DNA of 56,534 bases. Origin: an uncultured Verrucomicrobiota bacterium. GTDB lineage: Bacteria; Verrucomicrobiota; Kiritimatiellia; Kiritimatiellales; Tichowtungiaceae. The position numbers were made by a program, and so were the translations under genes. Below the pieces are notes generated by a model. The model did no database searches. It saw only the letters and a program-made list of their open reading frames with translations, and was not told the DNA's origin. How positions within the stretch are numbered: the stretch's first letter is position 1; the number at the start of each line of letters is the position of its first letter. This document shows, piece by piece, positions 1,009 to 21,435 of the stretch. The DNA is taken from positions 1 through 56,534 of the forward strand of contig CAIKGD010000002.1 of assembly GCA_903826865.1 (NCBI GenBank), read 5' to 3'.

Positions 1009-1515
1009 ATGGCTAAGCCGCAAGTTGCTATCGTAATGGGAAGTTCCAGTGACTGGAAAACCGTCGAATGCTGTTTCCAGACGCTGGAGGAATTCGGAAT
1101 CAAAGCCGAAGTGAAAGTCATGTCGGCTCACCGGACACCGCACGAAGCGTGCGTGTTCGCCGAAAACGCCGCGAAAAACGGCGTCAAGATTATCATCGCC
1201 GCCGCAGGCGGCGCGGCGCACCTCGCGGGCGTCATCGCCGGACACACGATTCTTCCGGTCATTGGAATTCCGATGCCGGGCTGGGCGCTCGACGGAATGG
1301 ATTCGCTGCTTTCGACCGTACAGATGCCGCGCGGCGTTCCGGTCGCTACCGTCGCCATTGGCAAAGCGGGCGCGGTTAATGCCGCGATTCTCGCCGTGCA
1401 GATGCTGGCGCTTTCCGACGCCGGGCTGAAACGCAGGCTGGTGAACTACAAAGCCAAAATGCGCAAAGAGGTGCTCAAGGCTGACGCCGATTTGCAGAAA
1501 CAGCTTGGGAAGTAA
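1009..1515 (+). CDS. purE: N5-carboxyaminoimidazole ribonucleotide mutase (PurE class I)
   Basis: PurE moves the carboxyl group of N5-CAIR to form CAIR in purine synthesis. The 168 residues match the usual length of about 165. The N-terminal MGSSSDW loop (phosphate binding) and the SAHRTPH motif (active-site histidine) are both present, followed by the glycine-rich AAAGGAAHLAG stretch and the GIPMPGWALDGMDSLLS region. The start ATG at 1009 is preceded by AGGAG at 997-1001, inside the end of purD. The gene forms a two-gene purine unit with purD. No purK is visible here; PurE of this class normally needs PurK to supply N5-CAIR, so purK is expected elsewhere. Confidence 0.96.
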   Translation: MAKPQVAIVMGSSSDWKTVECCFQTLEEFGIKAEVKVMSAHRTPHEACVFAENAAKNGVKIIIAAAGGAAHLAGVIAGHTILPVIGIPMPGWALDGMDSLLSTVQMPRGVPVATVAIGKAGAVNAAILAVQMLALSDAGLKRRLVNYKAKMRKEVLKADADLQKQLGK

Positions 1516-1603
1516 GAATATCGAACAAGGAATGTCGAATTTCAAAGTGGAGAAGTCCGATTCCTTCGTAATTCTGCGGTTCCTTGTTTGTTATTCGATA
1601 TTC
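1516..1603. repeat. Dispersed GAATATCGAA-type hairpin repeat
   Basis: The purE-tsaC spacer is almost entirely a repeat unit. Its ends are a perfect 10-bp inverted repeat (GAATATCGAA at 1516-1525, TTCGATATTC at 1594-1603). A second arm pair follows inside it (CAAGGAA at 1526-1532, TTCCTTG at 1580-1586), so the unit can fold into a long imperfect hairpin. A related unit with the same first 12 bases lies at 18045-18128. Its six-frame translation gives FEIRHSLFDI-like strings of the kind that recur as spurious ORFs in genomes carrying such repeats; that last point is from memory. Confidence 0.7.
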
Positions 1604-9618: not shown

Positions 9619-9666
9619 TTTTCCCCGAAAGCACAGGGTGCCTTTAACTTTTAAGGAGATTGAAGG

Positions 9667-11757
9667 ATGATCAAGCGGTGTATTGTATATGCGGTTGCGG
9701 GCGCTTGGGCTTGCGGGAGTTGCTTCGCAGAGAACGTGGCGCTTTATGCGGCTCCCGGCGGAAGCGATACAAACAGCGGAACGGCGGAACAGCCGCTGGC
9801 ATCTGTTCAGGCTGCACTGGACAAAGCCGCCGCTCTGGCCCCGGCCGCTGTAATCCTGAAAGATGGAACCTACCGGATTACTGAACCACTCGTTTTCAAA
9901 GAAAAACATTCCGGTGTTGCCTTGCAGGCGGAACATGAAGGAAAAGCGATAATCAGCGGCGGCCGCAAAATTACCGGCTGGCAGGAAGCGCCCGGCGGCC
10001 TGTGGAGCGCAAAAGTTCCGGATATGCCGAAGTTCAACCAGCTGTTTATCAACGGGGAACGGAAGATACGCGCCCGCACCCCGAATTCCGGATGGTACAC
10101 CGGAAAGCCCTATAACCAGTCGCAGGTCAAAAATCTGGATTATAAGGAAAATTTTGACTGTTTCCGTTTTAAGCCGGGACAGTTTGTCAAAATAAAGCCG
10201 GGCGAGCTGACCAATGTTTACGTTACTGTATTTCACGCATGGACCACCTCTCTCCACGCCTTGGAAGGTCTGGATATGACCCAAAAAGTGGCCTTTGTGG
10301 CTTCGCCTCCGTTTAAATTCCCGATCGGCAAATGGGAAGTCCGCTTTGTTATAGAAAACTACCGCGCCGCTCTGGATGCTCCGGGTGAATGGTATTTGGA
10401 TGCTGCAACCCAAACGGTCTATTACATGCCGAAAGCAGGCGAAACGATTACAGAGGCCGTTGCGCCGGGCATCAGCAAACTGCTGCTGTTTGATGGGACG
10501 AAAAGTGCGCCGGTTAAAAATGTGACAGTCGAAGGAGTCGTTTTTGAACATTGCGACTGGACTCTGCCGCGCAACCAGTCAGCGGACGGACAGCTGTGCC
10601 GTTCGATGTCCTCCGCTGCGTTTGCTGCGATATCCGGTAATTATGTGCAGGACTCTGTTTTGAAGAATTGCATCATCAGACGTATTGGTGCCGATGCCGT
10701 TTGGCTGGAAGAGGGCTGCCGGGATGTGCTGATTCAAAAAAATCATTTTCACGATATCGGAGCCTCGGCACTGAAGGCGGGCGCCTTGACCTATCCGGAT
10801 CCGGTTCCGGTCTCCGAACTGACGCAACGGATCAAAATAGACAACAACCTGATCCACGGCTGCGGCATTATTTTCCACGGCGGCTGCGGCATCGGGATTC
10901 TGAACAGCCCGAACAATACGGTCTCGCACAATGAAATCTCCGATCTGGACTACACCGGCATATCCGTCGGCTGGGGCTGGGGAAATGAGCCGTCTTCCGC
11001 CAAAAACAATCTGGTGGAGTATAACCGCATCAGTCACATCGGACGAAAAGTGATGAGTGATATGGCCGGTATTTATCTGCCCAATAAGCAGCCCGGAACC
11101 GTGGTCCGGAATAATATCATTCATGACATAAATTCCTATGAGTATGGCGGCAACGGTATATATGCGGATGCGCTCGGCTGCGATATGCTGTTTGAAAGCA
11201 ATCTGGTTTACCGGGTTTCATCCGCAGGCTTTATGCGGAACAAAGGTTGGGATAACACCGTTCAAAACAATATTTTTGCCTTCTGCAAGCTGGGTTTTTA
11301 CTGGTCGGGGCTGTCGGGTACAAACACCCCGAACGGACACATCAACTCCGTGCTGGAACGCAATATCAGCTATTGTAACGGAACCAATACGCTGTATCGC
11401 AAAAACGGCAGAGAGATTGATTTTAAAACCGTATTTCCTGTGAAGTGGGATTATAACCTGTATTGGAATGAGCCATCCAACATCATGTTCGGAGCTTACA
11501 CCTTCGAACAGTGGCAGAAAAATGCGAAACAGGACCGGCATTCCCAAGTAGCCGACCCTCTGTTTGTAAATCCTCTGGCGGACGATTTCACTCTTCAGGC
11601 CGGATCTCCCGCGTTTGAAATGGGCTTTAAGGCCATTGATTACTCACAGGTCGGACTTTATGGAGATCCGGACTGGATCGCACTGCCAAAAACCCTTGGC
11701 CATTCTTTTATCAGCGAAGTGTCGCCTAAGGAGCCCTCAGACCAGAACGGAATGTAA
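9667..11757 (+). CDS. Secreted right-handed beta-helix protein, GH141-like (copy 1)
   Basis: A 696-residue exported protein. The signal peptide MIKRCIVYAVAGAWACGSCFA is probably cut after CFA. The N-terminal block (YAAPGGSDTNSGTAEQPLASVQAAL, then ISGGRKITGW, LWSAKVP, LFINGERKIRARTPNSG) is the order seen in GH141-type glycosidases, whose known members act on plant cell-wall xylan or rhamnogalacturonan-II. The C-terminal half is a beta-helix with repeating Asn-rich turns (NNTVSHNEISDLDYTGISVGWGWG). AAGGAG at 9653-9658 supports the start. The next gene is a near-copy. Assignment to a particular family or substrate is from memory of the sequence pattern, not a search. Confidence 0.8.
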   Translation: MIKRCIVYAVAGAWACGSCFAENVALYAAPGGSDTNSGTAEQPLASVQAALDKAAALAPAAVILKDGTYRITEPLVFKEKHSGVALQAEHEGKAIISGGRKITGWQEAPGGLWSAKVPDMPKFNQLFINGERKIRARTPNSGWYTGKPYNQSQVKNLDYKENFDCFRFKPGQFVKIKPGELTNVYVTVFHAWTTSLHALEGLDMTQKVAFVASPPFKFPIGKWEVRFVIENYRAALDAPGEWYLDAATQTVYYMPKAGETITEAVAPGISKLLLFDGTKSAPVKNVTVEGVVFEHCDWTLPRNQSADGQLCRSMSSAAFAAISGNYVQDSVLKNCIIRRIGADAVWLEEGCRDVLIQKNHFHDIGASALKAGALTYPDPVPVSELTQRIKIDNNLIHGCGIIFHGGCGIGILNSPNNTVSHNEISDLDYTGISVGWGWGNEPSSAKNNLVEYNRISHIGRKVMSDMAGIYLPNKQPGTVVRNNIIHDINSYEYGGNGIYADALGCDMLFESNLVYRVSSAGFMRNKGWDNTVQNNIFAFCKLGFYWSGLSGTNTPNGHINSVLERNISYCNGTNTLYRKNGREIDFKTVFPVKWDYNLYWNEPSNIMFGAYTFEQWQKNAKQDRHSQVADPLFVNPLADDFTLQAGSPAFEMGFKAIDYSQVGLYGDPDWIALPKTLGHSFISEVSPKEPSDQNGM

Positions 11758-11838
11758 TGCGGCGGAAAAGGTGCGCTGTTAATTGCTCCCGTGCAGCCTG
11801 AAGAAGTCGGAATGCTTTTCATTAAAAGGAAATACACG

Positions 11839-13932
11839 ATGATTAAACGGTGCCTTGGATATGCGGCGGCGGCCGTTCTGGCCTGCGGGAGCTGCTTCGC
11901 AGAAGACGTAAAACTTTATGTGGCTCCCGGCGGAAGCGATATGAACAGCGGAACGGCGGAACAGCCGCTGGCATCTGTTCAGGCCGCACTGGACAAGGCC
12001 GCCGCTCTGGCCCCGGCTGCTGTAATCCTGAAAGACGGAACCTACCGGATTACTGAACCGCTCTTTTTCAAAGAAAAACACTCCGGCGTCGCTTTGAAGG
12101 CGGAACATGAAGGAAAGGCCGTAATCAGCGGCGGACGGAAAATTACCGGCTGGCAGGAAGGGTCCGGCGGCCTGTGGAGCGCAAAAGTTCCGGATCTGCC
12201 GGGATTTAACCAACTGTTTATCAACGGGGAACGGAAGATACGCGCCCGCACCCCGAATTCCGGATGGTACACCGGTCTCATATACAATCCATCGCAACGT
12301 AAAAACCTGGAATATAAGGAAAATTTTGACCGCTTCCGTTTTAAGCCGGGACAGTTTGCCGAAATAAAACCGGCCGAGCTGACCAACGTTTACGTTACGG
12401 TATTTCACGCATGGACCACCTCCCTCCATGCATTGGAAGCGCTGGATATGCCCCAAAAAGTGGCCGTTATGGCTTCGCTTCCATATAAATTCTCTATCGG
12501 CGGAAAATGGGAAATCCGCTTTATTACAGAAAACTACCGCGCCGCTCTGGATGCTCCGGGTGAATGGTATTTGGATGCTGCAACCCAAACGGTCTATTAC
12601 ATGCCGAAAGCAGGCGAAACGATTACAGAGGCCGTTGCGCCGGCCGTCAGCAAGCTGCTGCTGCTTGATGGGACGAAAAGTGAGCCGGTTAAAAATGTAA
12701 CGGTCGAAGGAATCGTTTTTGAACATTGCGACTGGACACTGCCGCGCAACCAGTCAGCGGACGGACAGCTGTGCCGTTCGATGTCCTCCGCCGCGTTTGC
12801 GGCGGTATCCGGCAATTATGTGCAGGACTCCGTTTTGAAGAATTGCATCATCAGACGCATTGGCGCCGATGCCGTTTGGCTGGAAGCGGGCTGCCGGAAT
12901 GTGCTGATTAAAAAAAATCATTTATATGATGTCGGAGCCTCGGCTCTGAAGGCGGGAACGATCACCTATCCGGTTCCGGTTCCGGCATCCGACCTGACGG
13001 AGCGGATTAAAATAGACAACAACCTGATTCACGACTGCGGCATTGTTTTTCACGGCGGCTGCGGCATCGGGATTTTGGACAGCCCGAACAACACGGTCTC
13101 GCACAACGAAATCTCCGATCTAGATTACACCGGCATATCCGTCGGCTGGGGCTGGGGCACCGATCCGTCTTCCGCCAAAAACAATCTGGTGGAGTATAAC
13201 CGCATCAGTCACATCGGACGAAAAGTGATGAGTGATATGGCCGGTATTTATCTGCCCAATAAGCAGCCCGGAACCGTGGTCCGGAATAATATCATTCACG
13301 ACGTGAATTCCTATGAGTATGGCGGTAACGGTATATATGCGGATGCGATCGGCTGCGATATGCTGTTTGAAAGCAATCTGGTTTACCGGGTTTCATCCGC
13401 AGGCTTTATGCGGAACAAAGGCTGGGATAACACCGTTCAGAACAATATTTTTGCTTTTTGCAGGCAGGGCTTTTACTGGTCGGGGCTGTCGGGAACAAAC
13501 ACCCCGAGCGGGCACATCAACTCCGTGCTGGAACGCAATATCAGCTATTGCAACGGAACCAATACGCTGTATCGCAAAAACGGCAGAGAGGTTGATTTTA
13601 AAACCGTATTCCCTGTGAAGTGGAATTCCAATCTGTATTGGAATGAACCCACCAACATCATGTTCGGAGCTTACACCTTCGAACAGTGGCAGAAAAATTC
13701 AAAACAGGACCGGCATTCGCAGGTAGCTGACCCTCTGTTTGTAAATCCCCTCGCAAACGATTTTACTCTTCAGGCAGGGTCTCCCGCATTTGAAATGGGC
13801 TTTAAGGCCATTGATTACTCACAGGTCGGACTTTATGGAGATCCGGACTGGATCGCACTGCCGAAAACCCTTGACCATTCTTTTATCAGCGAAGTGTCGT
13901 CTAAGGAGCCGTCAGACCAGAATGGAATGTAA
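11839..13932 (+). CDS. Secreted right-handed beta-helix protein, GH141-like (copy 2)
   Basis: A 697-residue tandem duplicate of the gene at 9667, about nine residues in ten identical by eye and collinear throughout. The signal peptide (MIKRCLGYAAAAVLACGSCFA) differs more than the rest. One stretch is identical for 134 bp (10990-11123 against 13165-13298), so the duplication or a later gene conversion is recent. Differences cluster in the N-terminal half (for example YTGLIYNPSQRKNLEY against YTGKPYNQSQVKNLDY), which may alter substrate contacts. The start at 11839 has AAGGA just upstream; the longer frame from 11791 lacks a ribosome site and a signal peptide. The 81-bp spacer shows no terminator, so read-through from copy 1 is likely. 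Confidence 0.8.
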   Translation: MIKRCLGYAAAAVLACGSCFAEDVKLYVAPGGSDMNSGTAEQPLASVQAALDKAAALAPAAVILKDGTYRITEPLFFKEKHSGVALKAEHEGKAVISGGRKITGWQEGSGGLWSAKVPDLPGFNQLFINGERKIRARTPNSGWYTGLIYNPSQRKNLEYKENFDRFRFKPGQFAEIKPAELTNVYVTVFHAWTTSLHALEALDMPQKVAVMASLPYKFSIGGKWEIRFITENYRAALDAPGEWYLDAATQTVYYMPKAGETITEAVAPAVSKLLLLDGTKSEPVKNVTVEGIVFEHCDWTLPRNQSADGQLCRSMSSAAFAAVSGNYVQDSVLKNCIIRRIGADAVWLEAGCRNVLIKKNHLYDVGASALKAGTITYPVPVPASDLTERIKIDNNLIHDCGIVFHGGCGIGILDSPNNTVSHNEISDLDYTGISVGWGWGTDPSSAKNNLVEYNRISHIGRKVMSDMAGIYLPNKQPGTVVRNNIIHDVNSYEYGGNGIYADAIGCDMLFESNLVYRVSSAGFMRNKGWDNTVQNNIFAFCRQGFYWSGLSGTNTPSGHINSVLERNISYCNGTNTLYRKNGREVDFKTVFPVKWNSNLYWNEPTNIMFGAYTFEQWQKNSKQDRHSQVADPLFVNPLANDFTLQAGSPAFEMGFKAIDYSQVGLYGDPDWIALPKTLDHSFISEVSSKEPSDQNGM

Positions 13933-17946: not shown

Positions 17947-18005
17947 CATAAAATAACGGTTTTTTGATCTGTGCTTTTCAACTGCCCGCTGGCACCATCC
18001 TCCGC

Positions 18006-18196
18006 AGTTCCCGGGGTGCCCGCCTGTCTTTCGGCAGGAAGTACGAATATCGAACAGCGAATTTCGAATGGTTTAAAATTTTATCATTTGAATTTCCGGT
18101 TTGTTCCGAGTTTCGTTTTTCGGATTTAAAATTTGTCCGCGGTGCTGAGATAATACCCGCTGAACCTGATCCGGCTAATACCGGCGAAAGGGAGTG
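18006..18196 (+). promoter_or_regulatory. TPP riboswitch (THI element) with a large P3 insertion
   Basis: The thiamine-pyrophosphate aptamer is recognised by its conserved blocks: CGGGGTGC (18012-18019), GCTGAGATAATACCCG (18145-18160), CTGAACCTGATCCGGCTAA and TACCGGCGAAAGGGA. P1 can form from GTTCCC (18007-18012) and GGGAGT; P2 pairs GGGGT with ACCC; P4/P5 forms from CCGG repeats. P3 is closed by CCGC (18020-18023) and GCGG (18139-18142), and between them lie about 115 nt in place of the usual 5-20, including a dispersed repeat. It controls thiS and probably the whole thiS-thiG-thiH unit. The aptamer core appears complete, so it is likely functional. Confidence 0.9.
18045..18128. repeat. Dispersed GAATATCGAA-type repeat inside the riboswitch P3 arm
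   Basis: GAATATCGAACA opens this stretch exactly as in the repeat at 1516. It continues with GAATTTCGAATGG and ends with TTTCGTTTTTCGGATT, giving AT-rich, self-complementary halves. It fills the P3 loop of the TPP aptamer. Confidence 0.55.
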
Positions 18197-18212
18197 ACGC
18201 ATTGTGCAAAAG

Positions 18213-18241
18213 CTCCCTTCGTAAAACGAACGGGAGTTTTT
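18213..18241 (+). terminator. Riboswitch-controlled terminator overlapping the thiS ribosome site
   Basis: CTCCCTTCGT (18213-18222) pairs with ACGAACGGGAG (one bulged C, ending 18236), followed by TTTTT (18237-18241) directly before the thiS ATG. GGGAG (18232-18236) is also the thiS Shine-Dalgarno sequence. AAGGGAG at 18188-18194, the 3' strand of P1, is exactly complementary to CTCCCTT (18213-18219), which gives the competing antiterminator pairing. Confidence 0.8.
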
Positions 18242-18442
18242 ATGTTTCTGACGGTGAATGGGGAAAAACACGAACACAGCGGCGACGGAACCGTCGCCGC
18301 CCTGCTGACCGAACTCGGCGCAACGCCCGATCACACCGCCCTGACCGTGAACGGCGAGCTGGTTTTTTCCAGACACTGGAAAACCTTCAAATTCAACGAC
18401 GGCGATACCGTCGAAATCCTTACTTTTGTAGGCGGCGGGTGA
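18242..18442 (+). CDS. thiS: Sulfur carrier protein ThiS
   Basis: ThiS is the small ubiquitin-like carrier whose C-terminal glycine is converted to a thiocarboxylate and donates sulfur to the thiazole ring. The 66 residues match the family and end in the required Gly-Gly (VEILTFVGGG). MFLTVNGEKHE at the start and ALTVNGELVFSRHW in the middle are typical. I start at 18242 because the GGGAG site sits 5 bp upstream; the frame extension to 18194 would run through the terminator. A TTCCA-N5-TGGAA dyad lies in the coding sequence at 18367-18381. No thiF, which activates ThiS, is adjacent. Confidence 0.93.
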   Translation: MFLTVNGEKHEHSGDGTVAALLTELGATPDHTALTVNGELVFSRHWKTFKFNDGDTVEILTFVGGG

Positions 18443-18463: not shown

Positions 18464-19246
18464 ATGAATGATGAACAAAAAAGCTGGCGGCTCGGCGGCC
18501 ATGAATTCAGTTCCCGGTTAATTCTGGGAACCGGCAAATTTTCCGACGCGGCCACGATGATTAAAGCTATTGAAGCTTCCGGCACTGAACTGGTTACCGT
18601 CGCGCTGCGCCGCTTCAACCGTGAAAAACCCGGTGATGATCTCTGCGCGCCGCTCGCGAAACTCAAAAATATCCGGCTGATGCCCAACACGTCCGGCGCC
18701 ATGAACGCTAAAGAAGCTGTCCGTGCCGCGCAACTCGGACGCGAACTGAGCGGCAGTCCGTTCGTGAAAGTTGAAATCCATCCCAATCCGCACCACCTGA
18801 TGCCCGACGCGATTGAAACCTATCTGGCCGCCAAAGAACTGGCCGCCGACGGTTTTATCGTCCTGCCCTACATTCCGGCCGATCCTGTTCTCGCAAAAAA
18901 ACTCGAAGACGCCGGTTGCGCGGCCGTCATGCCGCTCGGTTCCGCAATCGGCAGCGGCGGCGGACTTTCTACCGCCGACATGATCCGGCTGATCATCCGC
19001 GACAGCAACATTCCCGTCATTGTTGACGCAGGACTGCGCGCGCCGTCCGAAGCGGCCCGCGCCATGGAAATGGGCTGCGCAGCCGTTCTGGTGAACTCCG
19101 CCATCGCCGCCGCCGGAGATCCGGTCGCGATGGCCCGCGCCTTTGCCCTCGGCGTCGAAACCGGCTATGCCGCACGGCAGGCGGGGCTTATGCCGAAGTC
19201 GGACATGGCTGTTACGACGAGTCCCTTAACTTCTTTTCTTCGATAG
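18464..19246 (+). CDS. thiG: Thiazole synthase
   Basis: ThiG forms the thiazole phosphate of thiamine from 1-deoxyxylulose-5-phosphate, dehydroglycine and ThiS thiocarboxylate. The 260 residues show the TIM-barrel order: [38 protein letters not shown], the VKVEIHPNP strand carrying the Schiff-base lysine, [16 protein letters not shown] and [20 protein letters not shown]. The end ([17 protein letters not shown]) is usual. GAGGGA lies ahead of the ATG, 21 bp after thiS. It works with ThiH, next in the operon, which supplies dehydroglycine. Confidence 0.96.
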
Positions 19247-19272: not shown

Positions 19273-20379
19273 ATGAAAACTCTTCCCGACTGGCTGAACC
19301 CCGAACCCTGGCTCAACCGGACATTCTCCGCTTCAGAAGTCCGGCAGGCTCTCAGCGCGGAAGCGCCGGACGAAACAACGCTGGCGGCGCTGCTTTCGCC
19401 TGCGGCGGCGGATTTTCTGGAGCCGATGGCGGCGCGCGCTCAGGCGCTGACGCGCCGCCACTTCGGGCGGACGATTCAACTTTATGTTCCGCTTTATCTT
19501 TCCAGCTACTGCTCCGGCGGTTGCGCCTACTGCGGATTCGCCGCCGACCGCCGCACAGACCGGCATGCGCTGACTTTCGAGTCGGCAGCAAAAGAACTGG
19601 ATGCAATCCACGCGATGGGCTTTGAAGAAGTACTGCTGCTGACCGGCGAACGCTCGTCGCAGGCGGATCTCGATTATCTGCGCGAGTGCGTCAGGCTGGC
19701 GGCCCACCGTTTTCATAATGTCACCATCGAAGTTTTTCCGATGGCGGAAGAGGAATACCGCTCGCTGGCGGAAGCCGGCTGCACCGGCGTGACGCTTTAT
19801 CAGGAAACCTATCATCCGGGAACCTACGACCTGATGCACCGCTGGGGACCGAAAAAAGATTTTTTCCGCCGACTGGAAGCTCCGGCGCAGGCGCTGGCGG
19901 GCGGAATGCGTTTTGCCGGAATCGGTGCGCTGCTCGGGCTCGCCGATCCGCGCTACGATATGCTCGCGCTCTACCGCCACGCGCGCTACTTGCAGAAAAC
20001 GTTCTGGCAGGCCGGACTGGCCCTTTCGTTCCCGCGCATCCGCAACGAAGAAGGCGGCTTTATTCCGCCGCATCCGGTGGATGAAAAAATGCTCGCGCAG
20101 ATTATTTTCGCGTTCCGCATCTGCCTGCCGGATGTGCCGCTGGCGCTTTCCACCCGCGAAGGAGCCGCGTTCCGCGACGGCATGGCCGGACTGGGCATCA
20201 ACAAAATGAGCATCGCCAGTAAAACCACCGTCGGCGGCTACGGCGGCGAAGGCTCAAAAGAAGGCCAGTTTGATATCAGCGATGCCCGCAGTCTGGATGA
20301 ATTCTGCGCGATGCTCCGCACAAAACGGCTGGAGCCGGTCTTCAAAAACTGGGACGGCGTTTACCGCCTTACGGCCTGA
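19273..20379 (+). CDS. thiH: 2-iminoacetate synthase (tyrosine lyase) ThiH
   Basis: ThiH is a radical-SAM enzyme that splits tyrosine to dehydroglycine and p-cresol for thiazole synthesis; it is the oxygen-sensitive alternative to the glycine oxidase ThiO. The 368 residues contain the iron-sulfur motif C-S-G-G-C-A-Y-C in YLSSYCSGGCAYCGF, then EVLLLTGERSS, the LYQETYHPGTYD block and the C-terminal ASKTTVGGYGGEGSKEGQFDISD string typical of ThiH. Its use suggests an anaerobic or microaerobic life. The end overlaps the convergent DMT-family gene by 11 bp. Confidence 0.95.
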   Translation: MKTLPDWLNPEPWLNRTFSASEVRQALSAEAPDETTLAALLSPAAADFLEPMAARAQALTRRHFGRTIQLYVPLYLSSYCSGGCAYCGFAADRRTDRHALTFESAAKELDAIHAMGFEEVLLLTGERSSQADLDYLRECVRLAAHRFHNVTIEVFPMAEEEYRSLAEAGCTGVTLYQETYHPGTYDLMHRWGPKKDFFRRLEAPAQALAGGMRFAGIGALLGLADPRYDMLALYRHARYLQKTFWQAGLALSFPRIRNEEGGFIPPHPVDEKMLAQIIFAFRICLPDVPLALSTREGAAFRDGMAGLGINKMSIASKTTVGGYGGEGSKEGQFDISDARSLDEFCAMLRTKRLEPVFKNWDGVYRLTA

Positions 20380-20725: not shown

Positions 20726-20811
20726 AGATCCTTTCGTACGGTAAACAGCGCGGAAGATAGGCTCGCCCAATTCGTTTGAAAAGAGGAAAAACAAAGCTGC
20801 TGGAGAGCATG

Positions 20812-21435
20812 ATGAAAGAAAATTTCGGACTCTATATGGTGATGACCGATCCGGTCGTTGGATACGAAGCCTGCGCACAGGCAGCGGTAAACTGCGGGCT
20901 GCGTTACGTCCAACTGCGGATGAAAAACGCTTCCCGAGCCGCGATTCTGGCCGAGGCCCGCAAGGTTCGCGCCGTCACATCGGGCACCGGCACTTTGTTT
21001 ATTGTGAATGATGACGTCGAACTCGCGTGGGCCGCCGATGCCGACGGCGTCCACCTCGGCCAGAGCGATATGCCGCTCGACGAGGCGCGCAAACTCTGGA
21101 ACGCGCCCGGTAAAATTTTCGGCCTCTCCACGCACAGCGAAGCGCAGGAGCTGTCCGCACGGGCGCTGCAGCCGGATTACATCGGTGTCGGTCCCGTATT
21201 TCCCACGCCAACCAAGGCGGTTGCCGACCCGGCGCTTGGTGTCGAGCGCGCCGGAACCATTATTAAAAACTCGCCGCTCACCTGCGTCGCACTCGGCGGA
21301 CTCGACGAAACCAACCTCGCCGGCGTGCTGAAAGCGGGCGCAGTCAACTTTTGCGCCGTGCGCGCCATCATGCAAAGTCCGGAGCCGGAAAAAGTAATTC
21401 GTACGCTTCAGCAGATCTGGCGTGCTGACGTTTGA
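20812..21435 (+). CDS. thiE: Thiamine-phosphate synthase
   Basis: ThiE joins the pyrimidine and thiazole halves of thiamine. The 207 residues form the expected barrel: LYMVMTDPVVG, YVQLRMKNAS, LFIVNDDVELAWAADADGVHLGQSDMP, IFGLSTHSEAQE, DYIGVGPVFPTPTKA and ALGGLDETNLAGVLKAGAVNFCAVRAI. The pyrophosphate-binding Thr/Lys of PTPTKA is present. I use the second ATG of an ATG-ATG pair (20812), since GGAGAG at 20802-20807 is too close to the first (20809). It is separated from thiH by the antisense DUF486 gene, so it probably has its own promoter and need not be under the riboswitch. Confidence 0.92.
   Translation: MKENFGLYMVMTDPVVGYEACAQAAVNCGLRYVQLRMKNASRAAILAEARKVRAVTSGTGTLFIVNDDVELAWAADADGVHLGQSDMPLDEARKLWNAPGKIFGLSTHSEAQELSARALQPDYIGVGPVFPTPTKAVADPALGVERAGTIIKNSPLTCVALGGLDETNLAGVLKAGAVNFCAVRAIMQSPEPEKVIRTLQQIWRADV

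Follow-up and report, generated by a model that had tools for sequence, protein, structure and literature searches.

A dispersed palindromic repeat within the P3 arm of a TPP riboswitch aptamer upstream of thiSGHE

The thiSGHE operon in the 56.5-kb stretch of DNA analysed here (the window) is preceded by a TPP riboswitch, probably a working one, into whose P3 arm a dispersed palindromic repeat has inserted, apparently leaving the binding pocket undisturbed, the likely route being the foot of a hairpin; we put the probability of this reading at about 0.85. P3 contains an insert that belongs to a repeat family of this genome (G000) and is absent from congeners, inserts of the same family recur in P3 arms within the order, and copies of the repeat lie next to short hairpins. 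The route of insertion, like the retention of TPP binding and regulation, is what we infer.

The aptamer, its operon and the expression platform

The aptamer (Table 1) carries every conserved block of the thiamine class in the expected order, in agreement with the initial annotation. The true 5' strand, CAGTTCCC-GGGGTGC, occupies 18005–18019, the 5' block GGGGTGC itself being at 18013–18019, and the 3' blocks are CTGAGA (18145–18150), ACCC (18155–18158) and GAACCTGATCC (18162–18172). P5, CCGGCTAATACCGG, is found at 18171–18184, and GCGAAAGGGAGTG ends at 18196. The feature that defines a TPP riboswitch, the core CUGAGA plus GAACCUGAU together with P1, P2, P4 and P5, is present. RF00059 matched only the 3' part (18128–18212, 46.0 bits, E 5e-8), which is lower than the gathering score of 54.3, a detection threshold and not a defining feature of the class, whereas congeners with a short P3 and nearly the same core score 57–58 bits. 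The match is restricted to the 3' part because the long P3 masks the true 5' strand, and bases near the 3' end of P3 are mistaken for it. Unconstrained folding of the whole aptamer did not settle on the canonical P2, two registers of which sum to a pairing probability of ~0.7. A promoter-like pair, TTTAAA / GATAAT, at 18125–18154 overlaps both the insert, at its 3' end, and the aptamer core; it is probably due to chance, and as a promoter it could start a transcript without the 5' half of the aptamer.

Table 1. Positions of the features in the window
Feature	Position	Strand	Basis
TPP riboswitch aptamer with expanded P3, thiSGHE leader	18005..18196	+	blocks read directly; RF00059 partial match; identity to G008 outside P3
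P1 5' strand CAGTTCCC, partner GGGAGTG 18190–18196	18005..18012	+	sequence; kept in congeners
P2 5' strand GGGG, partner ~18155–18158 ACCC	18013..18016	+	sequence; pairing probability
P3 closing stem, 5' strand; partner ~18140–18145, one base bulged	18018..18022	+	sequence, predicted fold
GC hairpin CCTGTC-TTTC-GGCAGG, tip of P3	18023..18038	+	sequence; counterpart of the P3 hairpin CGCC-GCAA-GGCG of congeners
Dispersed palindromic repeat copy, 3' of the P3 hairpin	18035..18137	+	R1 40.1 bits on +, 31.4 bits on -; absent from congeners
TPP-binding core: CTGAGA, P2 3' strand, GAACCTGATCC, P4/P5	18145..18184	+	invariant blocks
Probable expression platform, hairpin GCTCCC...GGGAGTTTTTATG over the thiS ribosome-binding site	18212..18244	+	sequence; kept with other letters in congeners
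thiS	18242..18442	+	TIGR01683, 64.2 bits
thiG	18464..19246	+	PF05690, E 2.8e-99
thiH	19273..20379	+	TIGR02351, 437.9 bits
thiE	20776..21435	+	TIGR00693, 167.5 bits
Second palindromic repeat copy in the window (the unit at 1516 in the initial annotation)	1511..1603	.	R1 23.4 bits on one strand, 22.8 bits on the other; fold z -4.3

Between GGGGTGC and GCTGAGA, P3 measures 124 nt, as compared with 14–21 nt in the ten congeners that have a complete thiS leader; the arm had been recognised as long beforehand, at a length (about 115 nt) that now turns out slightly too small. Outside P3, the identity to the congener G008 amounts to 21/21 bases (18000–18020) and 56/57 bases (18144–18200). The short P3 of the congeners and this near-identity outside it together indicate that this lineage has gained the additional stretch by insertion, and the aptamer outside P3 is, as judged by the conserved letters, under strong constraint.

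The aptamer precedes thiS, which starts at 18242, and thiG, thiH and thiE, all of which are intact and were assigned by curated families. The platform hairpin GCTCCC...GGGAGTTTTTATG is able to compete with P1 for GGGAG. A terminator scan called no intrinsic terminator, which favours translational control. With TPP bound, P1 (CAGTTCCC/GGGAGTG) would keep the GGGAG at 18190, so that the platform hairpin could form and mask the thiS ribosome-binding site; with TPP absent, the GGGAG of P1 would instead pair with GCTCCC and free the thiS start. This scheme is deduced from the letters and from the platform hairpins of congeners, and the insert would have no effect on it provided that it folds locally. 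The riboswitch is probably an ordinary, working OFF switch for thiSGHE, and the conservation suggests that TPP binding and regulation have been kept.

The repeat family and its copy in P3

The 12-mer GAATATCGAACA, which the initial annotation had found both in the insert and in the unit at 1516, is indeed exact at 1516–1527 and 18045–18056; genome-wide it has 8 occurrences, compared with 0 for the reversed control, and on its own such a match would be weak evidence of kinship. A search with the initial 30 nt of the insert gave matches at ~10 other places in the genome, the best of them with an E of 0.0015. A profile built from eight copies of the repeat, none of them in a riboswitch, gave the insert 33.9 bits over 18038–18134, a score that was reached by 0 of 500 dinucleotide shuffles, for which the maximum was 8.0. 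When R1, a covariance model trained on seven copies outside riboswitches, was run over the whole window with E values up to 10, only 18035–18137 and 1511–1603 were found, each on both strands. The repeat is a dispersed, intergenic, AT-rich imperfect hairpin of ~100 nt composed of degenerate 7-nt CGAA words, and many of its other copies sit in leaders, immediately upstream of start codons. The insert behaves as an imperfect palindrome in that it is matched on both strands and folds on itself (z -2.7). The earlier proposal of a dispersed repeat settled in P3 is therefore well supported by the profile score, by the R1 matches on both strands and by the congeners without the insert. As for the unit at 1516, with which the start of the insert had been matched, a shared repeat is borne out; the closest full-length family is, however, the wider family of CGAA-word palindromes, of which that unit is a diverged member.

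The two arms of the repeat covary across 131 aligned matches (0.175, as against 0.115 for shuffled and 0.03–0.06 for slid alignments), and since these matches are both strands of ~66 loci, counted twice and aligned to the model, the value demonstrates palindromic pairing in the family and not selection on RNA. In the predicted fold, 29.8 expected pairs are internal to the insert and 4.1 are formed with the core. The RNA of the repeat, which lies directly 3' of the small hairpin at the P3 tip, would accordingly fold on itself and turn P3 into a short closing stem with two hairpins, the TPP pocket being left undisturbed; such extra sequence is probably tolerated because P3 is the arm in which TPP riboswitches are known to differ in length, as the initial annotation had noted.

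Intergenic arrays with a period of 7 nt and other words (TCAGGGA, CTTGAGG, ATTTCAT and GAAAGAT; loci L189, L191, L194, L199, L200 and L202) were also seen in the genome, indicating that it harbours several word families. The window further contains a direct duplication at 9666–12800, with a spacing of ~2,172–2,175 bp and three blocks that are 86–95% identical.

Recurrence in P3 and the route of insertion

The other TPP riboswitch detected in this genome, in the thiC leader on contig C57, has a P3 of 109 nt that holds another copy of the repeat family. An orthologous insert (0.89 identity to that of G000) is present in the thiC P3 of G004, and its sequence matches 17 other places in the G004 genome, several of them nearly full length with 74–80% identity. 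The insert common to G000 and G004, which we regard as older, is accompanied by an intact aptamer core; elsewhere, the thiC P3 is shortened to 55 nt (G012) or comprises only 8 nt (G005 and G008).

Among ~80 TPP cores from 43 genomes of the order, nine have a long P3: thiS and thiC of G000, thiC of G004 and G012, thiS of G014 and G023, a thiS-type riboswitch of G035, and one each in G025 and G024. R1 detects 8 of the nine, all except that of G012, the matches in G025, G024 and G023 being weaker. In congeners, P3 was either short or filled by members of the repeat family, and a long P3 devoid of similarity to the repeat, the finding that would speak against a settled repeat, was not seen among them. 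Merging the orthologues (thiC of G000, G004 and G012; thiS of G014, G023 and G035) leaves at least five separate entries. The thiS insert of G000 is no nearer to the thiS inserts of G014, G023 and G035 than to randomly chosen dispersed copies, which disfavours common descent of these inserts. Trees of ThiG and ThiC were too poorly resolved for placing the insertions. When 388 genomes of the phylum were searched for the pattern of a similarly long P3, the matches were only G000, G014, G023 and G292, the last a probable chance match. A global pattern scan of GTDB was dropped as a measure of the long-P3 rate; chance upstream GGGGNGC motifs dominated its matches, so no rate for all bacteria is derived from it. 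In the congener G006, a tandem pair of TPP riboswitches was observed (G006:C27, 23341–23587; L029).

R1 lists ~87 copies across 19 genomes; TPP P3s account for seven of these copies, whereas ~0.01 would be expected if 12% of the genome were open to insertion (P ~1e-18, or ~6e-13 for five independent entries), although the exact enrichment should not be used because some of the 19 genomes were picked on suspicion of a long P3. For G000 alone, its two TPP P3s contain 2 of the ~12 copies, with an expectation of 0.001. Rfam searches at 80 element loci revealed no other structured RNA hosting the repeat, only tRNA genes beside two thiS leaders. P3 thus seems to be a recurrent landing site for this repeat family.

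A possible reason is offered by the surroundings of the copies. Perfect stems of at least 7 bp start within ~6 nt of 10/126 copy ends (7.9%), compared with 0.6% of control windows (P 4e-9), as counted on copies outside riboswitches with visible orthologues dropped and by a measure chosen after seeing the loci. A minimum-free-energy measure of the same adjacency showed nothing, probably as a result of the GC-rich flanking genes. In the long TPP P3s, one end of the repeat copy adjoins a small GC hairpin, and the thiS insert of G000 begins at the same point of P3 as those of G014, G023 and G035. Since copies adjoin short perfect hairpins beyond chance and P3 is itself a hairpin, P3 may be a preferred target: the element would enter, or survive, at the foot of a hairpin, and hence in P3. 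Members of the family have gone into P3 independently, both in this lineage's thiC riboswitch and in riboswitches of thi genes elsewhere in the order. At some loci, a short perfect hairpin before the element wraps the stop codon of the preceding gene (L346 and L348, leuD; L327, L343 and L427, a cyclophilin gene; L407), and its coding half and post-stop half co-vary between species (leuD in G003 and G004). At the orthologous empty sites of leuD and the cyclophilin gene, the hairpin is absent from most, and the copies seen there have both hairpin and element; a hairpin without element is found at leuD in G009 and at the cyclophilin gene in G007. No clear target duplication was found at the empty sites of these two loci.

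The recurrence could also mean that the element has been co-opted, serving the switch or its transcript, for instance through slower folding, protein binding or protection of the RNA. The over-representation of P3 among element locations, the pairing kept across the family and the many other copies right before start codons would all agree with such a role, yet most members of the order lack the element, the inserts vary in both sequence and length (with a P3 down to 55 nt in G012) and the pairing signal is family-wide instead of P3-specific, so that we consider co-option unlikely. Still less can be said for a long P3 that the ancestor of the order already had and that most lineages later shortened, with a likeness to the repeat that reflects a similar AT-rich hairpin composition. 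The short P3 of ten congeners, a G000 thiS insert no closer to the thiS inserts of the other family than to dispersed copies, and real scores never reached by shuffled inserts make this very improbable, even though the G000 insert shares its start point in P3 with those of G014, G023 and G035.

Damage to the aptamer, by which thiSGHE would no longer be regulated by TPP, is suggested by the Rfam score below the gathering threshold. We hold this to be improbable, as the 3' half (56/57) and the 5' flank (21/21) are unchanged relative to G008, the expression platform is present, the older thiC insert of G000 and G004 also coexists with an intact core, and P3 arms of ~150 nt are given for fungal TPP riboswitches (PMC11683625). 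An inserted repeat in a probably functioning switch remains our preferred reading. As a tentative extension, which we rate as possible and somewhat short of even odds, the repeat may be mobile or self-propagating and may target the feet of small hairpins, which would make the P3 arms of TPP riboswitches natural places for it to insert. Repeated invasion and decay would then be what renders P3 the hypervariable arm of the class in the order, and perhaps, through other palindromes, also in Saprospiraceae, Prolixibacteraceae and Rickettsia.

Comparison with known systems

The P3 of TPP riboswitches ranges in length from <10 to >170 nt, and we are aware of no case in which the origin of the added length has been demonstrated. 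Here a source is visible in the form of genomic copies of the repeat, empty sites in sister species and at least five events, by which the origin of expanded riboswitch arms becomes a testable question for close relatives and reporter assays. Such switches are missed in annotation when they fall below the Rfam threshold or when the wrong 5' strand is read, and the hairpin-adjoining habit may lead to the mechanism that mobilises the repeat. The riboswitch belongs to a known class, and the repeat-filled P3 is a new variation of it whose recurrence is of interest in itself. In the literature within reach, which mostly excluded subscription papers, we found no TPP aptamer described as containing a dispersed repeat; the earlier remark that no bacterial case had been described holds to that extent, but the case is not an isolated one, since this genome's thiC riboswitch shows it as well, as do other lineages of the order.

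TPP riboswitches with P3 inserts of 100–110 nt were also observed in other phyla, namely in Saprospiraceae (L076 and L123), Prolixibacteraceae (L128) and Rickettsia sp. nzgw532 (L089). The insert is a strong palindrome in L076, L123 and L089, and that of L128 has four AATTTGA words. The Rickettsia insert presumably resembles a Rickettsia palindromic element; no match to it was found among plasmids.

Compared with RF00059, the blocks, helix order and gene context are alike, whereas P3 here has 124 nt, mostly dispersed repeat, and the score is for that reason below the gathering threshold. In cyanobacteria, STRR heptamer repeats within the RNase P RNA were reportedly described by Vioque in 1997. 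They resemble the present case as dispersed heptamer repeats within a structured RNA gene presumed to work, but they are tandem identical words in another RNA, whereas the words here are degenerate and palindromic, and strict lag-7 arrays in a 338-kb sample were other sequences; the present repeat is thus similar to STRR without being one. MITEs, REPs and Rickettsia palindromic elements are likewise short, dispersed and palindromic, mostly without genes of their own; unlike them, the present repeat consists of degenerate 7-nt-word arrays adjoining hairpins, no clear target duplication was seen at the two loci with empty sites, and we do not class it as a MITE. Intergenic heptamer repeats have been described in Beggiatoaceae (PMC4679880). 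A long P3 is normal in fungal TPP riboswitches, and RF00059 is known to read them badly (PMC11683625). In both cases P3 exceeds the rest of the aptamer and RF00059 misreads it; in the passages of the article considered here, the fungal P3 sequence is not traced to a genomic repeat, whereas in the present case it is. Pneumococcus has a BOX element (PMC3049150) that is similarly dispersed and palindromic and occurs in the leader of a riboswitch that has stayed functional, but BOX sits between two aptamers, both T boxes, whereas the repeat described here lies inside one.
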